DNA from: Vulcanisaeta moutnovskia 768-28
Lineage (GTDB): Archaea > Thermoproteota > Thermoprotei > Thermoproteales > Thermocladiaceae
Assembly: GCF_000190315.1 (NCBI RefSeq)
Contig: NC_015151.1
Coordinates: forward strand, 2,086,509-2,150,508
Length of the DNA: 64,000 nt
Direction: 5' to 3'
The position numbers and the translations under genes were made by a program. The notes under the pieces are model-generated. The model was not told where the DNA came from. It ran no database searches and saw only the letters and a list, made by a program, of their open reading frames with translations. The first letter of the stretch is position 1. Every line of letters begins with the position of its first letter. Positions 179 to 48,106 of this stretch are shown here, one piece after another.

Positions 179-1873
179 ATGGCTAATCGTCCTTTACATT
201 ATCGCGGTCAGGCTAGGATCATGGAGGCAATAATCGCCACCATAATAATCCTGGTGCTAGCAGCCTTAATGCCCATGTTATTTAAATCGCCAACGACGCA
301 ACTGCCGAGCCAAGTCGAGTCCAACCTGGAGTCCTATGCCGAGAATGCCCTCTCCCTACTGATAAATAATCCTCAATTCCTCTCGATTATCCAGAATGAG
401 AATTGGGGTGAACTGGACTCTTTAATGAATAGTATTGTTGGTCCTCAGTATGACTGGTATGTTGCGGTGATTCCATATGGTAGATTGCTCACCTTGTCCT
501 CTATTGTTAAGGGTAGTAAGTATGTTTTAATACCCATAACCACGGTGCCTATGTGGAATTACTCCTCACCAATACCAATACCACTCACAGATATACACGT
601 ATCAGAATTAACGCTAAACGTGTACTTACTAAACTTTCTGCTATCCACAGTATCGCCTAATTACTTCATAAACACAACACTGCCTTTATCCAACGTAGCC
701 TTCATACAATGTGCAAACCAGTCCTTAATGAGTAATATAACGGCGTGCATTGAGAGTAGGCAGGTCAGGATGCTCAGATGGTGGGTTACGTATTTTGATC
801 CTAGGACTGGTACGGCTGTTGTTTGGGTTAATGCTACTGGCAACATGTATATTGTTGTTTCCGCAAATGGTACTTTACCATATAATGTTATTAGCGGTAC
901 GTATTGTAGTGAGCCCTATTGTTTCGATATGGGGCTTGGTGGGCTCAGCAATTTAATGAATACCGTATACGGGGCATCGTATAATAATGAGCCGCAGTTC
1001 ATTAATTATGTAAATTCCAACGTCCTTAGCTGTAGTATCTCCAATGGCGTTAAGTATGGTAGTAACTATCTAGTTGAGTTATTAACAAATGGAATTTACT
1101 ATAATGTACCATCATCAGTAGGTTGTAGTGCGACTGTCAATGCGCCATATGAGCCTTATGGTTACCATGTCTACATGATTGGGCAGTTGATAACGGCAAT
1201 ACCAGACTCATTCCTTGAGCTTACCTTTAATAATATTGAAGTTGAGCCGTACATTGTGTATCCTAATGGTACCGTGAATGTGCTGAGTACGTACCAGGTT
1301 GGTTCTATCGGTGTTGAGCTGCTTTACGGAAGTAATGCGGAACGTATGTATATAATAGGCAGTAGTGGAATCCTGAATAAAACAATGCTTAATCAATATT
1401 CCTATTTATACCTGCTTGATTTAGGCATCGAACCTACTATAAGCAACGGCGTTTGCTATCTAAACATTAATGTTACCTTATATGATTTAGTTACGACAAG
1501 TAATTATAACATTAATGCCAGCGTTCCTGTAGGCAGTTGTTCCAATGCGCTTGGTATTAATGTCACAATAGGAGGCATTAGTATTGCACAACAATCACAG
1601 AATCCACAAGGTAATACGAATTATACATACAATACAACGACCATAGTCTACGATCTGTGGTTCATAGGGACTCCAACAACCACACAATACATGCCTATCT
1701 ATGTGAATTACGAATTCCAGCGCATAGACGCCCTTAACATTATTCCACCTAACTATAGAGAGAAGTTCGCCATCAATGGTTTCTCACCAACGGCCTCTGC
1801 CTTCGCAGTTGTTCAGCTTGGTAATAGTTCATACTACCTCGTTTATATTGGGTTAAGTAGTTTGTCGAGGTGA
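179..1873 (+). CDS. Large pilin-like surface protein with class III-type N-terminus
   Basis: This 564-residue protein starts with a short basic stretch (RPLHYRGQAR) followed by a Glu and one hydrophobic helix (about residues 14-34). That layout matches archaeal type IV pilin-like precursors cut by a PibD/FlaK-type peptidase after the Gly. The rest is a Tyr/Asn/Ser/Thr-rich extracellular part with many NxS/T sequons and several Cys (e.g. CSEPYC). It is far longer than a major pilin, so a minor subunit or adhesin is more likely. The ATG follows a GGGGTGG/TAGGG ribosome-binding sequence and the 3' end overlaps the next gene. Function is inferred from the N-terminus and context only. Confidence 0.65.
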   Translation: MANRPLHYRGQARIMEAIIATIIILVLAALMPMLFKSPTTQLPSQVESNLESYAENALSLLINNPQFLSIIQNENWGELDSLMNSIVGPQYDWYVAVIPYGRLLTLSSIVKGSKYVLIPITTVPMWNYSSPIPIPLTDIHVSELTLNVYLLNFLLSTVSPNYFINTTLPLSNVAFIQCANQSLMSNITACIESRQVRMLRWWVTYFDPRTGTAVVWVNATGNMYIVVSANGTLPYNVISGTYCSEPYCFDMGLGGLSNLMNTVYGASYNNEPQFINYVNSNVLSCSISNGVKYGSNYLVELLTNGIYYNVPSSVGCSATVNAPYEPYGYHVYMIGQLITAIPDSFLELTFNNIEVEPYIVYPNGTVNVLSTYQVGSIGVELLYGSNAERMYIIGSSGILNKTMLNQYSYLYLLDLGIEPTISNGVCYLNINVTLYDLVTTSNYNINASVPVGSCSNALGINVTIGGISIAQQSQNPQGNTNYTYNTTTIVYDLWFIGTPTTTQYMPIYVNYEFQRIDALNIIPPNYREKFAINGFSPTASAFAVVQLGNSSYYLVYIGLSSLSR

Positions 1874-2622
1874 TGGGCGTGGATAGTCAAGGTTTAAGCG
1901 AGACTCTTTCCTTGGTTTTGGTTCTGGGTGTTGTTTTAGTTCTATCTGCAATTTTTGTGCTTATTGCTGGCTTTAATTTTGCCTCAGCCTCCGCATCCAC
2001 ATCCCTTGCACAAGCGCAGACGTTCTTTGTTGATGTGGCTCAGGATTTGAATGCTGCAATTATGAATGGCATTCAGAATTACGCATTGTCATTTCCACGC
2101 CCAACAACGCAATTCGGCGTATATGGTGCTCTATTTAACTATTGCAAACTGATTATTGTTAATACCACGCACGCAGTTGTGAATACCTATTCCAGTGGCG
2201 CTATTTTATTTGGTGTATCGCCTAGCTACCTATCGTTACCTAGCGGATTTAGTGAGAGTTTGTTTAGCAATTGTAGTTCTTTGATTTTCAACTCTGTATC
2301 ATCTAGCTTCTTTGCTGTTTGTAAGTTTGGCGCTGGTAATTTAAACGGTGTTTCTTATGGAACCTACGTGATCCTTTTCCCGAGGGTTGGTGCTTTCGTC
2401 TCTGGTTCTACCTACTACATCTATGTTCCAATCATAAATGTCATCTTTGATTCTAGCCTACATGGTTTGTTCTTCGCCAATGTTACGTCCTGGAGCTATA
2501 TTACTATCAATAATCCACTTTATATAACATATTCATGTGGTTCAGTAACGTCATCGTATTCGTTAAATGGTGCTAGTAAAATTGAAATAGTACTTATAAA
2601 AATAATCATTAAGTATGGGTGA
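1873..2622 (+). CDS. Pilin-like protein, class III signal (paralogue of next gene)
   Basis: About 249 residues. The N-terminus SQG-LSETL followed by a long hydrophobic helix is the type IV pilin pattern: Gly before the cut, Glu a few residues after it. The body shares YGVY, GVxPxYxSxP and FGxGxxxGVSYGT with the next protein, so the two are paralogues. The stop codon of the upstream gene (TGA 1871-1873) overlaps ATG 1873, indicating translational coupling. GTG 1870 and GTG 1879 are alternative starts; 1879 is better spaced from GAGGTG at 1867-1872. Probably a minor pilus or adhesion subunit anchored by its N-terminal helix. Confidence 0.65.
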   Translation: MGVDSQGLSETLSLVLVLGVVLVLSAIFVLIAGFNFASASASTSLAQAQTFFVDVAQDLNAAIMNGIQNYALSFPRPTTQFGVYGALFNYCKLIIVNTTHAVVNTYSSGAILFGVSPSYLSLPSGFSESLFSNCSSLIFNSVSSSFFAVCKFGAGNLNGVSYGTYVILFPRVGAFVSGSTYYIYVPIINVIFDSSLHGLFFANVTSWSYITINNPLYITYSCGSVTSSYSLNGASKIEIVLIKIIIKYG

Positions 2623-2628
2623 TTGAAA

Positions 2629-3462
2629 ATGAAAAGCAGGGGACAAAGTGAAATATTAAGCGTTGTAATCTTGACGGCAACAATATTGGCGGTAGCGGCA
2701 ATGTTTCTGGTAGTGGCTATGAGGTCCTTTAATTATGATTCGGCCTATTACTCGATTAGTTATGTTGCGTCGTTCTTGACTAATGTGGCTGATGATATTG
2801 ATACCTACCTAATGTCGCCTGGTGTGTCCTTGACTTATGCATTGCCGAGCACCGAGTATGGTGTTTATAATTACGTATATTCTAATGATGCGTATTGTGA
2901 GATTTACGTTAACGCCTCTGGTGCTAACATCGTTACTGCCACATCTGGTGTATTGATTTATGGCGTGCCACCTAACTATTTCTCAATACCTGCTAGTAGG
3001 AGTGCTTGGTATGTATGGAGGGGTTCCAATATGATAGGCTATCCTACGGTTAATCCAAGTGACTTCTCATTAATAGTTGGACCAGGTGTTTTCGCACTGA
3101 CAGGCACCCTCATCTCCATAGTTCAGTTTGGGTATGGTTCTGTAGACGGTGTTTCCTATGGTACGTTTTTAGCCCTGGTTCCTAGGGTTTTGGCGATTAA
3201 TGGTTCTTTGAATAGTGGTGTCGGTTATATCTACATACCCGTGTTTATTAGTATGGGCAATTCTACTGGCAGGAATATTCTCACAATCAAAATATTGAGT
3301 GTCTCATCATTCTCATTGAGTGATGTAAGGCATTTAATTGTTACAGAGAAGTGTAATATCGGTAAGTATATACTACTTACTAATCCCGCTCTACGTAAAG
3401 TTACCGTAGTTGGTAACAATATATATATTGTGGAAATTAGGATAGGTATTAACATGGGGTGA
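2629..3462 (+). CDS. Pilin-like protein, class III signal
   Basis: About 277 residues. It begins MKSRGQSEILS followed by a hydrophobic helix, a textbook archaeal pilin precursor motif with cleavage expected after the Gly. It shares the YGVY, GVPPNYFSIP and FGYGSVDGVSYGT blocks with the preceding protein. I chose ATG 2629 because GGGTGAT lies 6 nt upstream, overlapping the previous stop; TTG 2623 is possible. The motifs show a secreted, membrane-anchored subunit. Its exact filament type (adhesive pilus or other) cannot be read from the window, because no assembly ATPase or platform gene is present here. Confidence 0.65.
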   Translation: MKSRGQSEILSVVILTATILAVAAMFLVVAMRSFNYDSAYYSISYVASFLTNVADDIDTYLMSPGVSLTYALPSTEYGVYNYVYSNDAYCEIYVNASGANIVTATSGVLIYGVPPNYFSIPASRSAWYVWRGSNMIGYPTVNPSDFSLIVGPGVFALTGTLISIVQFGYGSVDGVSYGTFLALVPRVLAINGSLNSGVGYIYIPVFISMGNSTGRNILTIKILSVSSFSLSDVRHLIVTEKCNIGKYILLTNPALRKVTVVGNNIYIVEIRIGINMG

Positions 3463-3466
3463 TTAT

Positions 3467-4027
3467 ATGAACGTTCTGGCCTTCGTAATAACCACGGTAG
3501 CACTCCTGGCCTTAGTTATATTCTTCACGTGGTATACCAATTATTATACAACAGTTAATATGCTTAATACTGTTAGTTATGTATCGTCACTCGTATCCTC
3601 AGCCCTCACCCATGAATTTGAGAATGCCATCGCCATAGCCTCCATGGGCGATGTTGTTGGCTCATTCAATTATACGTTATTGCTTCCAACATCTGCTGTG
3701 CCTGTACAGGGAGTAGCGCTTAACTATAGTATAACGCTGTATCCAAGGAAGCAGTCAAATACATTGTTGCTTTATGCTAATATAACGGTAACAATGAGCA
3801 TGGGTCCACTTAGCAGGTCTGAAAACGCAACGGTACTTGTTTATTCATCAGCACAGCCCTATGAAATAACGGCATATAACTGTAAAAACAATAATTCCCT
3901 AGTTACAGTTACACTTGTTAATCCTGACTGGGCGAGTCAAGTATCACCGAAGTCAGTACCAACCTGCACGTGGACCAGCGCCCAGGTTCAGTTGGGTGAT
4001 GCAGTGATAGGTATAAGTAAGGGTTAA
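3467..4027 (+). CDS. Small secreted/membrane-anchored pilin-cluster protein
   Basis: 186 residues, with a hydrophobic N-terminal segment (about residues 3-21) and then a beta-rich, sequon-containing extracellular part with two Cys near the C-terminus. Unlike its neighbours it lacks the GxSE cleavage motif, so it may be an anchored accessory subunit rather than a processed pilin. GGGGTGAT precedes ATG 3467 and overlaps the previous stop, giving the same arrangement as at the other operon junctions. It is the last gene of the operon. The family is not recognised. Confidence 0.6.
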   Translation: MNVLAFVITTVALLALVIFFTWYTNYYTTVNMLNTVSYVSSLVSSALTHEFENAIAIASMGDVVGSFNYTLLLPTSAVPVQGVALNYSITLYPRKQSNTLLLYANITVTMSMGPLSRSENATVLVYSSAQPYEITAYNCKNNNSLVTVTLVNPDWASQVSPKSVPTCTWTSAQVQLGDAVIGISKG

Positions 4028-4046: not shown

Positions 4047-4457
4047 ATGGGTATTGAGTATTTGAGGTTGTTTCCGTGGAGTGATTATGGTGTGGTGTTT
4101 GCGTTATTGTTTGGTTCTAGGGCGTGGGGTAGGGTGTTTAAGGGTGATTGGGATATTGCTGTTTGGTTAGGTGATGTTGATAAGGACATAGACCTTCAGT
4201 ACGCATTGGCTAGGTTTCTTCATGTGCGTGAGGAGAGTATCGGCTTGGTAGTACTTAATAATTATGAGTACCTGCCCTGCTCATTAATAATTGATGTATT
4301 GGGTAAGGGTAAGGTGGTTTATTACCGGGACTTTGATGAGTATCTTGATATTAAGTTAAGGGTTTTGAAGCCTTGTTTCGACTTTATGATTGATGCTGAG
4401 AAGCTTGATTTACTAAGGACGCAGATAAATGCGGTGACTAAGAAATGGGTTCAGTAG
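4047..4457 (+). CDS. MNT-domain nucleotidyltransferase (antitoxin-like)
   Basis: 136 residues. The N-terminal half has the minimal nucleotidyltransferase motif GSRAWGRVFKGDWDIAVWL: the GS signature followed by the metal-binding DxD (DWD). A later Asp in LIIDVL can serve as the third carboxylate. In archaea such proteins pair with HEPN proteins, where MNT/MntA adds AMP to the HEPN toxin (established for the family). The next gene, 37 nt downstream, is HEPN-like, so I infer an MntA/HepT-type module. The pilin operon ends just upstream, but a functional link is not implied. Confidence 0.75.
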   Translation: MGIEYLRLFPWSDYGVVFALLFGSRAWGRVFKGDWDIAVWLGDVDKDIDLQYALARFLHVREESIGLVVLNNYEYLPCSLIIDVLGKGKVVYYRDFDEYLDIKLRVLKPCFDFMIDAEKLDLLRTQINAVTKKWVQ

Positions 4458-4494
4458 AACGTTTGCTGAAGCTTCTTTTTATTATACATCATTA

Positions 4495-4869
4495 TTGGAT
4501 AATCTAAGTATTGATGACCTGAATGATGTGTATAAGTACTTATCTGCGGTGTACTTATTGCAAGTTCAAGCCAAATCACTTATTGATATCGTGGTTAAGG
4601 CTGCATCAGCGATGGGATTCGAGGTTGAGGGCTATATTGATGCTGGCAATAAGTTAGTAAGCGCTGGTCTGCTAAGTAATGAGGAGTTTAGTAGGTATAG
4701 GTCTGTTGTTAGGTTTAGGAATAATTGTGGTTCATCAATATGGAATTATTATGGAATTATTGATGTGAATATAATTCGTAGAATAATAAGCAATAGAGAG
4801 TATAGAGAGGTTGCTAAGCTTGGTGTTAAGGTTGTGGAGGAATTACGTAGGCGAGGAATTGATTGCTAG
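4495..4869 (+). CDS. HEPN-like protein (HepT-type) with altered active site
   Basis: 124 residues, mostly helical, with a TTG start; no ATG/GTG precedes it in the open frame. Position after an MNT gene and the block RFRNNCGSSIWNYYGIID match the HepT/DUF86-like region, where active RNases carry R-x4-6-H-x-Y. Here Arg-Asn are kept but the His is replaced (Ser/Trp region), so RNase activity may be lost or the motif rearranged. It overlaps the convergent HerA gene by 4 bp. The HEPN assignment rests on context plus this motif and is moderately secure. Confidence 0.6.
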   Translation: MDNLSIDDLNDVYKYLSAVYLLQVQAKSLIDIVVKAASAMGFEVEGYIDAGNKLVSAGLLSNEEFSRYRSVVRFRNNCGSSIWNYYGIIDVNIIRRIISNREYREVAKLGVKVVEELRRRGIDC

Positions 4870-43523: not shown

Positions 43524-43637
43524 AATCCATGAATCATTAAAGCGCCACTTTAAATATTATTGCCAAGATATTCCCATATTTTTAAGGACTAGAATGAAGA
43601 GAAAAATTAAAAAGAGAAAACAAATAATTGATATATA

Positions 43638-44645
43638 ATGTTCACAGAGAAAATCAGAAACGCAAAATACAGTAGAATAGCGCTGATACTAATGTTCATG
43701 GCATTAGCCATAAGCGTATTAGTGCTAGCTGACGTAGTTTATTATTATAAAGGTGTGATAACTGCTACGGTATCCCAGGCACCACTAACCTTTTTCCCAG
43801 GCCCCAATGGTTACGTACCACCCTACATAGCAACAAGTATAACGCCAACAGGGTTCTCATTAACAATACAATTAACCAACGCCTCATATGCCTATTACTA
43901 CCAAGTGCTTGGGATGAACGTGTACTCCTGGTGCTGGCTCTACGTAACTAACGTAACAGTAAGTAATGAATTAATAAATAACCTGTGGCTATACATAACA
44001 ACACCACAAAACCAAACATACTGCATACTGCCAGTAATTTACAAGGCAATGCCTACACCATTACAAACCTATCAATCATGTACAGCAGGCTATTGGAAAA
44101 ACCATGCCTCAATACCACCATGGTCCTCACAATACCCACCAAATGAAACCCTTGGCTCAGTATTCACTGCATTAAACCAATACTGCACTGAACTAAGCAA
44201 CTACACACTGCTCCAGGCGCTATACTTCCCGAGTGAAGGTCCATATAAACCAAGTAGTTATTGTGGTAAGGTTGAGCTATTGCTATTTCAGGCGGTTACT
44301 GCACTTGAGAATTCCGCCACAATGAATTACCCATTAACGTCAGATGAAGTCATTACAATGACTAATAATGCCATATCAAGTACTAACATAACAGAAGTTA
44401 CTAATTTACAGAACTACTTTAATCAGCTAAATGAGGAGTATGAGTATGCCTGCTCACCAGGATCTCATTACGTAATTATACCACCAACAACTGGATGCAC
44501 ATTACAACCAGGTACGTACTATATCTCTGTGTTTGTTCAACCAATAATTCCGCTATATATTGGACAAAGTGAATCAATAGATTTTTATTTAGCATGTAAT
44601 GTTGTTAATAATGAATCAATACCATTACCTCCAGTTGCAGGTTAG
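43638..44645 (+). CDS. TasA-like secreted fibre protein with inserted CTAGYWKNH domain
   Basis: 335 residues. Signal or anchor segment at about 14-31, ending LADVVYYYKGVITATVSQAP, then a beta sandwich with IQLTNASYAYYYQVLG. Residues about 143-285 form an extra domain starting CTAGYWKNH (148-156) with four more Cys; it is absent from the paralogue 44753-45391. The final block LQPGTYYISVFVQP resumes the shared fold. CxxGYWKxH domains occur in secreted proteins, some with SipW/TasA-type signals. Leaderless start. Likely a surface fibre subunit or its cap; inference. Confidence 0.62.
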   Translation: MFTEKIRNAKYSRIALILMFMALAISVLVLADVVYYYKGVITATVSQAPLTFFPGPNGYVPPYIATSITPTGFSLTIQLTNASYAYYYQVLGMNVYSWCWLYVTNVTVSNELINNLWLYITTPQNQTYCILPVIYKAMPTPLQTYQSCTAGYWKNHASIPPWSSQYPPNETLGSVFTALNQYCTELSNYTLLQALYFPSEGPYKPSSYCGKVELLLFQAVTALENSATMNYPLTSDEVITMTNNAISSTNITEVTNLQNYFNQLNEEYEYACSPGSHYVIIPPTTGCTLQPGTYYISVFVQPIIPLYIGQSESIDFYLACNVVNNESIPLPPVAG

Positions 44646-44752
44646 TTCTTGATTATGTTCATTTTCTAAAACAATGAAGAATAAATATTACTAAAAATAA
44701 ATACCTAATTTATAAGAAAAGTTTAAAAAGAAAAACTTAACATATTAATTGT

Positions 44753-45391
44753 ATGAGAACATTTAAAATAAATGGAAAAACAAGAAAATACCTACTAATA
44801 GCAGCGATAGCTCTAATGTTAATCAGTGTTGTTGCACTAGCTGATGTGATCTATTACTATAAGGGTGTAATAACGGCCTCAGTATCTCAAGCACCACTAA
44901 CCTTCTATAGCGGTAAGAACTTCACGTATACGACGCCAACGGGCACCACATGCACCGTACCATTAAATAGCTATGCAGGCAATTACGCGAATTTCACAGC
45001 GACATCCCAGGGATTCACCGCCAAGATACAACTTACTAACGCATCATATACCTACTTCTACCATGCACTTGGATTACTTGCTAATACGCCAGGCTGGATA
45101 TACATAACTAATGTTACAATTAGTGGCACACCAATAATTGAGCAGTTAACAATAGTTATTCAAAATGCATATACTGGGCAGTCCGTCTGTAGTTTCACGA
45201 TAATAGCAAATGCAGAACCAATACAAGGAACAACTAATGCCTGCGCATTGAATACAGGGCCTTATCTCATATCAGTAATAGCTCAACCAATAGCGTCGTT
45301 AAGTACTGGCGAATCTGAAACAGTGACACTATACTTTGGTTACAATATTATGAGTAATGCGACAGTGCCATTACCACCAATTAGCGGTTAG
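44753..45391 (+). CDS. TasA-like secreted fibre protein (major-subunit candidate)
   Basis: 212 residues. Signal segment about 13-30, then ADVIYYYKGVITASVSQAPL, IQLTNASYTYFYHALG and a terminal LNTGPYLISVIAQPIAS, all shared with the gene before it but without the insert. The compact beta-sandwich size and free strand after the signal are features of TasA/camelysin-like donor-strand subunits and of the archaeal bundling pilus subunit AbpA. Its own strong leaderless promoter (GTTTAAAAAG, 44721-44730) heads a four-gene operon. Filament function is inferred. Confidence 0.62.
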   Translation: MRTFKINGKTRKYLLIAAIALMLISVVALADVIYYYKGVITASVSQAPLTFYSGKNFTYTTPTGTTCTVPLNSYAGNYANFTATSQGFTAKIQLTNASYTYFYHALGLLANTPGWIYITNVTISGTPIIEQLTIVIQNAYTGQSVCSFTIIANAEPIQGTTNACALNTGPYLISVIAQPIASLSTGESETVTLYFGYNIMSNATVPLPPISG

Positions 45392-45408
45392 TAATTTGGT
45401 TGATTAAA

Positions 45409-46188
45409 ATGACCCCCTTCAAAACCTTTATTTTATTATCCATAATCCTAACATTAATAGCTCTCATAATAACCTATGGCGCGGTTAAATTCACATCAAG
45501 TATACACCCGGCAACCATGATCACACCGTATGTAGATGTTGAGAATACAACAGTATCGGGTGAAGGTCTAATCGTTAAGCTAGTTATAATTAATGCAACA
45601 GGTAATATAACAATCACGGGAGGATACGCAAGTATCCTTGAAACAGGACAATCAGCACAATTAAGTACCATTGGGCCTCTAACTCTTGAAGCAAAGTACC
45701 CGTTATTACCTCAATATGTTAACCTAAGTACCATAGGAATTAAGGGCTTGGTTAGTGGAACGTTTTATGGCGACCCAATGTACATAGGCTTCTTCCTGGT
45801 TGCACCAATAAGCGTGAGGATCAATACCTGGATAAGTAATGTGGAGTATAGTGATTGCATACTTAATATATTGATTTCATACTCAACACCAGTACCAATT
45901 ATGATAAATGAAATATCAAACATTACCCTAGTAGATGATACTCAATCATCATATGTATTTTATGTAATTGGTAACATTCCATTATCAACATACATAACCC
46001 CTGGCATTAACAATACAGTCATTACGATTAACCTAGGCACTATTCCGAATGCCAGGGTTTTCTCCTGCTCATTAGTGAACGGTCATACCTATACCCTGTA
46101 CTTACCGGTTAGTGTTACCTATGTTTACCCAACCATTAATATGACGTCGCAGTTAACGTTATATAGGGTATTCATAACTGGTGGTTAG
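45409..46188 (+). CDS. Secreted beta-rich protein of the fibre operon
   Basis: About 259 residues from ATG 45409; TTG 45400 is in frame. An N-terminal hydrophobic segment (about 4-24) precedes a long beta-rich region with sequons (INATGNITITGG, ISNITLVDD). Two Cys (about 155 and 212) could form a disulfide. It is twice the size of a fibre subunit and may hold two Ig-like domains, for example a cap or anchor. The stop abuts the next start. No family recognised. Confidence 0.58.
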   Translation: MTPFKTFILLSIILTLIALIITYGAVKFTSSIHPATMITPYVDVENTTVSGEGLIVKLVIINATGNITITGGYASILETGQSAQLSTIGPLTLEAKYPLLPQYVNLSTIGIKGLVSGTFYGDPMYIGFFLVAPISVRINTWISNVEYSDCILNILISYSTPVPIMINEISNITLVDDTQSSYVFYVIGNIPLSTYITPGINNTVITINLGTIPNARVFSCSLVNGHTYTLYLPVSVTYVYPTINMTSQLTLYRVFITGG

Positions 46189-46189
46189 T

Positions 46190-46990
46190 GTGAGGCTAGA
46201 AGTTATCATTCAATTGATTATTGCATTGATATTCGTAATCTCTTGGTTCTTAGCACCGCTTTGGTGCTTAAGGTCCAATATATATACCCAGGAATTAACA
46301 CCACTCGGCTTCTCCATAACCTTCCTAGGCCATAAGTACTTCCTAATCCTACCAAATTCAATTGCAGCACTTATCTATGTGATTACTTCAGCATTAATAC
46401 CAATTGCCTGGAGAAATAGCAGGTATTCCCTCTACCTATCTCTATTCACGTTATCATTAGCCATTATGTTAATAATCACAGTATTCATCTTCCAGAGTAG
46501 GTACTTATTCTACGGTGGTTATTCGGTGCTTAGTACGGAGACCGGTTACATGTACATTAGAATACCATATACCACGTACTTTGGAATACCATTATACATA
46601 TTGGTATTCTTAATCATAGTAACTTCAGTAAATGCAGTAACTAGGGCTAGGTGGATTACTGTGAGGAGGATGACAATCATTGAGGAGACATTGCTAATGG
46701 TGAGGTCTGAAGGCCCCATCAACGCAATTAGGAAAGCTCTGGATAGGATTGGTATTCAGTATTCAATAATTAATAATGCATTGATTATTGGGGATATGGC
46801 AATTACGGCAAGTAATACGGGAAGACCTGAAGGTGTTAAGGAATACTTATCATTTACAGATAAAGGTTTCATTTACTTTGATGGATCATCGATCACGGAA
46901 TTAAGTACTGAACAGGGAATAATACTGGCCATCTCCAAAGCGCTTATTAAAGGTAAACCAGGCAAACCATTGGCGGGTGAATATGCGTAA
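46190..46990 (+). CDS. Polytopic membrane protein of the fibre operon
   Basis: About 266 residues from GTG 46190; GTG 46181 is also possible but overlaps the previous gene. Four hydrophobic segments (about 5-25, 52-72, 82-105, 135-155) are followed by a soluble cytoplasmic domain of about 105 residues with TIIEETLLMVRSEG. It may anchor or regulate the fibre. It has no signal peptidase Ser/Lys motif. Its 3' end overlaps the next gene (ATGCGTAA). Confidence 0.58.
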   Translation: MRLEVIIQLIIALIFVISWFLAPLWCLRSNIYTQELTPLGFSITFLGHKYFLILPNSIAALIYVITSALIPIAWRNSRYSLYLSLFTLSLAIMLIITVFIFQSRYLFYGGYSVLSTETGYMYIRIPYTTYFGIPLYILVFLIIVTSVNAVTRARWITVRRMTIIEETLLMVRSEGPINAIRKALDRIGIQYSIINNALIIGDMAITASNTGRPEGVKEYLSFTDKGFIYFDGSSITELSTEQGIILAISKALIKGKPGKPLAGEYA

Positions 46991-47513
46991 GCTATTTTTA
47001 ATAATCATGATACTGGTTATGGCGTTAATAGCCCTAGCAAGCGCTGTATATTATAAATACGTAACGACATCAATCAATGTAACAAACCCACCAATTAGTA
47101 TAGAACAAGCTCAATCTCAGTACATAAGTAATTTCATAAATAGACCAACAGGTCTTTACATAAGTGCTTCAATTAGTAAATCAGTAATTATTTACGTTAA
47201 TAATACGGGAACCATAAACATAACCCTGGCAAGGGTAATCATTACACGCCCAATAACAGTAGAACTTAACATAAATGCGCAGGAACCAGTGCAATTAACA
47301 TTAATGATACTTAATGCAAGTAATGCTTTGGTAGCGATGTACCCTAATGATACGATCTTTAACCTAAATCCCGGTAATTACATCATTATTGAGGAGATAC
47401 AATTACCAATGAACTTCACGGGAATGACAACAGTAAGTGGAACATACATTGTTATGATTAAAGGAGTTGAATTTGTATACAACCTCAACGAGGATATCAA
47501 TATTACCAATTAA
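46983..47513 (+). CDS. Small secreted beta protein of the fibre operon
   Basis: 176 residues from ATG 46983, coupled to the previous stop and preceded by GGTGA. Signal segment about 3-22 (LFLIIMILVMALIALASA), then YYKYVTTSINVTNPP and a beta domain with two matching NxT-rich strands. It lacks the IQLTNASY motif. It is the last gene of the operon. Likely an accessory surface subunit. Confidence 0.55.
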   Translation: MRKLFLIIMILVMALIALASAVYYKYVTTSINVTNPPISIEQAQSQYISNFINRPTGLYISASISKSVIIYVNNTGTINITLARVIITRPITVELNINAQEPVQLTLMILNASNALVAMYPNDTIFNLNPGNYIIIEEIQLPMNFTGMTTVSGTYIVMIKGVEFVYNLNEDINITN

Positions 47514-47677
47514 CGTATCATAATCACTTTTGCGCATTTTATACTTTTTAATTTAAAAATTAGATTTATAAATACTAATTATTATTGGAAATATTCCGAC
47601 TATATTATTATTTTATAAAATATTATTTCAATAGTAATAGAAATATTTAAATACTAAAAATAGAAAGTAAAATAATT

Positions 47678-48106
47678 GTGAAAACAATATTCATGGCATT
47701 GATACTGGCATTAATAATACTCGCCATAGCTAACGTAATGGCCTCAGCACAGCAACAGCACTATTACCATTTATTTAATATTCACATTCAATTAACCAAC
47801 GCCTCATATATTTATTATAATGACGCCGAAGAGATAAACATCCCACAGACTGAGGTAATCAGGCTCGTGAATGTTTACTACCTTGGCAATGGCATTAATA
47901 ATGTCTGGCTGTATATCCAAAGACCCGATGGTCAATATGTGGGAATACTACATGTAATAAATAATGGGAAATCATACACGGATTCAAAGGAAATTCTGCT
48001 GTCGCCAGGTAACTACTACATATCCATTCTCATACAACCAAGTCCTGTGGTTAATTATGGCGATAATGCCACAATAACTATATACTTCATAATTACGCAC
48101 AGTTAA
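47678..48106 (+). CDS. Short TasA-like secreted protein
   Basis: 142 residues from leaderless GTG 47678. Signal segment about 4-24 (to MASA), then HIQLTNASYIYYND and LSPGNYYISILIQPSPVV, which match the two fibre proteins at 43.6 and 44.7 kb over their core. It lacks the first strand VSQAPLTF of the others. Separate promoter ATTTAAATA (47645-47653). Third paralogue of the cluster. Confidence 0.58.
   Translation: MKTIFMALILALIILAIANVMASAQQQHYYHLFNIHIQLTNASYIYYNDAEEINIPQTEVIRLVNVYYLGNGINNVWLYIQRPDGQYVGILHVINNGKSYTDSKEILLSPGNYYISILIQPSPVVNYGDNATITIYFIITHS

Follow-up and report, generated by a model that had tools for sequence, protein, structure and literature searches.

Threads are thin adhesive surface filaments of hot-spring archaea that are already known from Sulfolobus acidocaldarius, in which the cryo-EM structure of the subunit Saci_0406 shows donor-strand complementation. 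A homologue in Vulcanisaeta moutnovskia has likewise been published. Gaines et al. 2022 (PMC9715654) describe its AlphaFold2 model as lying 2.18 A from Saci_0406, place threads in a class apart from AbpA bundling pili, and argue that threads and chaperone-usher pili are independent in origin. A second thread paper terms the functions of Saci_0404, 0407, and 0408 elusive. What is newly described here is the anatomy of the locus, taken from a window of 64,000 nucleotides of V. moutnovskia (the whole stretch of DNA that was analysed), with thread loci compared between this window and 20 further genome stretches. The species identity is supported by a phosphotriesterase-like lactonase of the genome that matches 4rdy, the lactonase VmoLac, with full identity over 316 residues. 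A crystallised VmoLac from V. moutnovskia is described in PMC4323659. We report homology, operon layout, co-occurrence, and predicted folds for two proteins, and this comparison bears on the assembly, capping, and anchoring of archaeal threads.

Thread identity and gene layout

The region from 43638 to 48106 is very probably a diversified thread-filament locus. Its six open reading frames, all on the + strand, and the associated features are listed here by coordinates in the window, with the basis of each assignment in parentheses.

43606..43613, + strand, TATA-like ATTAAAAA, centre about 28 nt upstream of the 43638 start codon, an ATG (consensus only)
43638..44645, + strand, candidate decorated thread subunit, 335 aa, with signal peptide, DVVYYYKG donor strand, and interrupted head (phmmer, AlphaFold2, Foldseek, tree)
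44061..44486, + strand, GYWKNH insert, about 140 aa, interrupting the 43638 head (alignments)
44722..44729, + strand, TATA-like TTTAAAAA, centre about 27 nt upstream of the 44753 start codon, the ATG that opens the thread operon (consensus only)
44753..45391, + strand, major thread subunit, 212 aa, Saci_0406 homologue (phmmer 1.5e-17, profile 1.5e-63)
45409..46188, + strand, protein with a membrane anchor and two Ig-like beta domains, Saci_0407+0408 homologue (alignment, AlphaFold2, iterative HMM)
46181..46990, + strand, four-helix membrane protein with a C-terminal soluble domain, Saci_0409 homologue (sequence match, hydropathy, co-occurrence)
46977..47513, + strand, short secreted protein, N-terminal domain of the Saci_0404 family (hhalign; operon slot)
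47646..47653, + strand, TATA-like TTTAAATA, centre about 28 nt upstream of the 47678 start codon, a GTG (consensus only)
47678..48106, + strand, short thread-head protein, 142 aa, candidate acceptor-only cap (hhalign to thread profile)

Searched against the PDB with phmmer, the 44753-45391 protein returned two matches only (E = 1.5e-17 and 1e-13), each of them the thread of Saci_0406, and a 21-sequence thread profile reached 7pnb at E = 1.5e-63. The 43638-44645 protein also matches 7pnb (phmmer E = 4.8e-9). The solved thread filaments matched by subunits of the locus are 7pnb and 8rzl, both from S. acidocaldarius. Of the two full-length paralogues, 44753 is the obvious candidate for the homologue modelled in PMC9715654. 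The locus resembles the S. acidocaldarius thread in subunit sequence, predicted fold, Sec signal, D-V-I-Y-Y-Y tail, sequons, and neighbours of the Saci_0407/0408 and Saci_0409 types. It differs in having two extra thread-fold proteins, 43638 with its GYWKNH insert and the tail-less 47678, in the shortening of its Saci_0404-type protein, and in the tight coupling of the thread gene to its partners within a single operon.

The original prediction had proposed three related secreted proteins with shared motifs, forming a donor-strand beta filament of the TasA/AbpA type, one of them within a coupled operon of four genes. The relationship and the operon are borne out, the donor-strand character is supported, and the assignment to TasA/AbpA is not. 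In BLASTP comparisons, 43638 and 44753 are true paralogues (E = 2e-28 and 2e-12 for the two halves) and 47678 is related to both at E of about 1e-9, all far beyond chance. IQLTNASY is indeed found in all three proteins (at 43866, 45026, and 47786), as is the C-terminal block (GPYLISVIAQP, GTYYISVFVQP, and GNYYISILIQP). VSQAPLTF, described as common to the three, is present in two only, at 43770 and 44882. The donor-strand filament is supported by the homology of the subunits to Saci_0406.

The coupled operon is real and comprises 44753-45391, 45400, 46181, and 46977, with gaps of 8, -8, and -14 bp; its second open reading frame begins at TTG 45400, and ATG 45409 is the codon that lines up with the start of the homologues. 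The genes 43638 and 47678 are set apart from this operon by 107 and 164 bp. The starts of 43638, 44753, and 47678 are each preceded, at a distance of about 27-28 nt, by a TATA-like box. Read from the consensus alone, these boxes suggest three transcripts.

For the major subunit, an assembly pathway can be proposed. With cleavage sites read off the alignment with Saci_0406, a Sec/signal peptidase I-type signal is followed by D and YYY in 44753 (ALA-DVIYYYKG) and 43638 (VLA-DVVYYYKG) and is absent from 47678. The 44753 protein, which carries a single N-terminal hydrophobic segment, a signal-peptidase-type site, no lipid anchor, and five N-X-S/T sequons, would be exported by Sec, and signal peptidase I would then cleave behind ...ALA, exposing DVIYYYKG. 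Its subunits would then polymerise head to tail, with the N-terminal strand of each filling the head groove of its neighbour. The presence of the filament in V. moutnovskia, as well as every assembly role put forward here, we infer.

A covalent isopeptide link has also been proposed. Asp24, one of its residues, is kept in both full-length subunits, 44753 and 43638, and in most homologues, with Asn or His in the Acidilobus-like rows of the alignment and Glu in one Sulfolobaceae-type row. Asn57, in a poorly aligned loop, is aligned in 44753, missing in 43638 and several homologues, and missing or replaced in many alignment rows. Given this variation, the proposed link is unlikely to be universal in the family; with the loop so poorly aligned, this is meant as a warning and proves nothing.

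The probable extra subunits

Both ends of the 43638 protein are thread-like, and an insert of about 140 residues lies between them. In its AlphaFold2 model the head blocks mostly have pLDDT values of about 75-94, the tail is free, and the insert is mostly below 50 and helical. The model shows the thread head fold, and 7pnb is its sole significant Foldseek match in the PDB (E = 3.8e-8). The tree places 43638 as sister to 44753 with support of 99/97, and thus points to a duplication within this Vulcanisaeta group. By sequence, 43638 is a tandem duplicate of the thread subunit whose head is interrupted by a GYWKNH domain. It may be a minor subunit that decorates the filament surface or sits at the tip.

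The insert itself contains Cys, is mainly helical in the low-confidence model, and is conserved in four Vulcanisaeta genomes. It had no significant match in Pfam, NCBIfam, or the PDB, a literature search for GYWKNH returned no match, and no relatives of the insert or of the thread subunit were found among the viral contigs searched. One relative forms the C-terminal domain of a protein in another archaeon (L088:1039-1878, E = 9e-19), and another makes up the C-terminal end of a large protein encoded on a Rhodococcus plasmid (31%, E = 7e-7). This bacterial protein may be of a surface type. The N-terminal part of the L088 protein presumably resembles TasA/camelysin proteins; the protein had no match in Pfam.

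The third thread-fold protein, 47678, aligns with the thread profile over columns 80-192 only (hhalign 99.6%, E = 8.4e-24). It is without the donor strand and the first head strands, and an identical N-terminus arrangement is seen in three genomes. A head that has no donor strand could accept a tail but would have none to offer, which would suit a subunit at the end of a chain. Judged from the alignment and a count of strands, 47678 appears to keep the groove-lining strands (beta-4 and the last strand) and would be acceptor-only.

The protein encoded at 46977 matches the Saci_0404-family profile (hhalign 96.8%, E = 3e-10, 167 columns, within the first 174) and occupies the same operon slot, with the same overlap, as the long Saci_0404-type form. 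In other Vulcanisaeta and in Caldivirga, proteins of this family have about 480-520 aa, and their N-terminal domain aligns with nearly all of 46977; the large C-terminal domain present there is missing from 46977. Among five proteins tested, this C-terminal domain gave one PA14 match above the Pfam cut-off. No long form is found in the V. moutnovskia genome, and 46977 may be regarded as a shortened Saci_0404-type protein. Comparison with the Saci_0405 cap gave an hhalign probability of 1%, and that identity was rejected for 46977; no counterpart of Saci_0405 was found at the locus.

Placed together, these proteins make a heteropolymeric thread with one decorated subunit and one end cap the likely picture. 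The specific role given to each extra subunit is less secure and is better than even in no case. A more complete proposal, in which the heteropolymeric threads of the V. moutnovskia group would bring their own cap (47678 ending one side), a GYWKNH-displaying duplicate, and an assembly or anchor complex of 45409 and 46181 that thread-bearing archaea conserve, is conceivable and is put forward tentatively.

It could also be argued that 44753 alone forms threads and that 43638 and 47678 are separate surface proteins which reuse the thread fold, under their own promoters and in other conditions. Each of the three genes does have its own upstream gap and TATA-like box, 43638 is without the aligned Asn57 isopeptide acceptor, and 47678 is without a donor strand. 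However, the DVVYYYKG tail of 43638 is intact, its head was modelled in the thread fold, and the 43638, 44753, and 47678 types are found together in three genomes (the window, L013, and L014), and we consider such a separation unlikely. If the extra subunit types do belong to the heteropolymeric thread preferred here, they could reveal how thread filaments are capped and decorated, and the natural variants (tail-less, with decorated head, or with shortened 0404) make capping testable.

The partner genes and their distribution

The protein encoded at 45409 was modelled by AlphaFold2 with a mean pLDDT of 89.9, as a helix (residues 6-33) followed by two beta domains, and an iterative HMM search ties it to the S. 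acidocaldarius pieces Saci_0407/0408. Its fold matches, with low TM-scores, are mostly generic tandem Ig/FnIII proteins, transglutaminases, and two-domain CfaB pilin fusions. The two Ig-like domains raised the possibility of a PapD-like chaperone, which was set aside as no chaperone occurs among the top 50 fold matches; the assembly role of 45409 is therefore a guess from gene order. A donor-strand chaperone is possible but unsupported, and a membrane anchor or base is the more modest reading. Kinship with the thread subunits was also considered and rejected, the comparison giving no relation. Its neighbour 46181 matches Saci_0409 (L050 7694-8494) at E = 6e-23. As a conserved core, 45409 and 46181 would most likely hold or assemble the base of the filament.

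In a species sister to S. acidocaldarius, Saci_0407/0408 corresponds to one gene of 276 aa (L051:6571-7401), and in S. acidocaldarius itself to two overlapping reading frames (L050:6652-7483), with a single-base difference in a T-run between the two DNAs at the junction. On this comparison a single base seems to divide what would be one gene into saci_0407 and saci_0408. The Saci numbers on L050 were assigned from gene order and length, and the assignment agrees with the thread paper, which mentions species with a fusion of 0407 and 0408. In three Sulfolobaceae-type stretches (L052:2668-3300, L054:899-1486, and L055:2537-3118, two of the three scanned with Pfam), a ParA/MinD-type ATPase gene adjoins the 46181 or 45409 homologue.

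The same gene set is found in Sulfolobaceae, Vulcanisaeta, Caldivirga, and an Acidilobus-like family. Among 398 genomes of the phylum, strong matches were counted in 20 for the thread subunit, in 21 for the 45409 family, and in 21 for the 46181 family, these counts leaving out weak partial matches, including thread-profile matches at E of about 1e-4 in other families. The 45409 and 46181 sets coincide, and all 20 thread genomes lie inside the 21 that hold both partners (hypergeometric probability about 1e-32, a value that ignores relatedness). The comparison names a two-protein core that is present with nearly every thread gene. The lineages with strong thread matches are ones that we take to be thermoacidophiles. 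The sole genome with both partners and no thread match (G012) is Caldivirga-like. At L101:1938-2708, also Caldivirga-like, both core partners are kept together with the long protein, and there is no thread subunit gene where one would be expected. Two genomes have two different thread loci each (L014 and L068 in G008, L057 and L058 in G021); those of G008 are, respectively or not in that order, a locus like that of V. moutnovskia and a locus with the long Saci_0404 form.

Relation to other filament and surface systems

The attribution to a TasA/AbpA-like archaeal bundling pilus, with camelysin-type subunits, a dedicated signal peptidase, and bundles, has in its favour that donor-strand assembly is common to both in principle; AbpA pili, as the thread paper describes them, and TasA fibres are likewise donor-strand beta filaments with a signal-peptidase-I-type leader. 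However, no sequence relation to the locus is detectable. The 21-sequence profile matched no TasA or AbpA chain in the PDB at E<=10, and the Pfam TasA model (Peptidase_M73) found nothing in the whole V. moutnovskia genome, with a positive B. subtilis control; on these grounds membership was rejected. The sole significant fold match of the 43638 model is, moreover, to 7pnb. In line with the prediction, no signal peptidase gene was found in the window: the thread locus has no adjacent SipW-like enzyme, and the genome's only archaeal signal peptidase I match lies at 2007086-2007490, about 79 kb before the window. With 44753 homologous to Saci_0406 and no TasA/AbpA match, the filament type is the known thread, and a TasA/AbpA-like pilus is very improbable.

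An S-layer or other non-filament surface role, to which the secreted, beta-rich, sequon-rich proteins and the S-layer protein 8c8k among the 45409 fold matches might point, is likewise very improbable: 44753 is homologous to a subunit solved as a filament, has no lipid anchor, and shows one hydrophobic segment, at its N-terminus, together with a site of signal-peptidase type.

Bacterial chaperone-usher pili share with threads the principle of the donor strand, and the reasoning about minor and end subunits applies to both. They differ from the locus described here, where there is no usher, no recognisable chaperone (the locus proteins gave no chaperone or usher match in Pfam), and no outer membrane.

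Elsewhere in the window, at 179-4027, a cluster of proteins has type IV pilin-like N-termini, for example RGQSEILSVVILTATILAV; the four proteins gave no match above the Pfam cut-off. Two filament types in V. moutnovskia are plausible, and Sulfolobus is already known to have several filaments, namely archaella, Aap, UV pili, and threads. Beside this cluster, at 4047-4869, lies a nucleotidyltransferase and HepT-like pair that is likely a toxin-antitoxin module.
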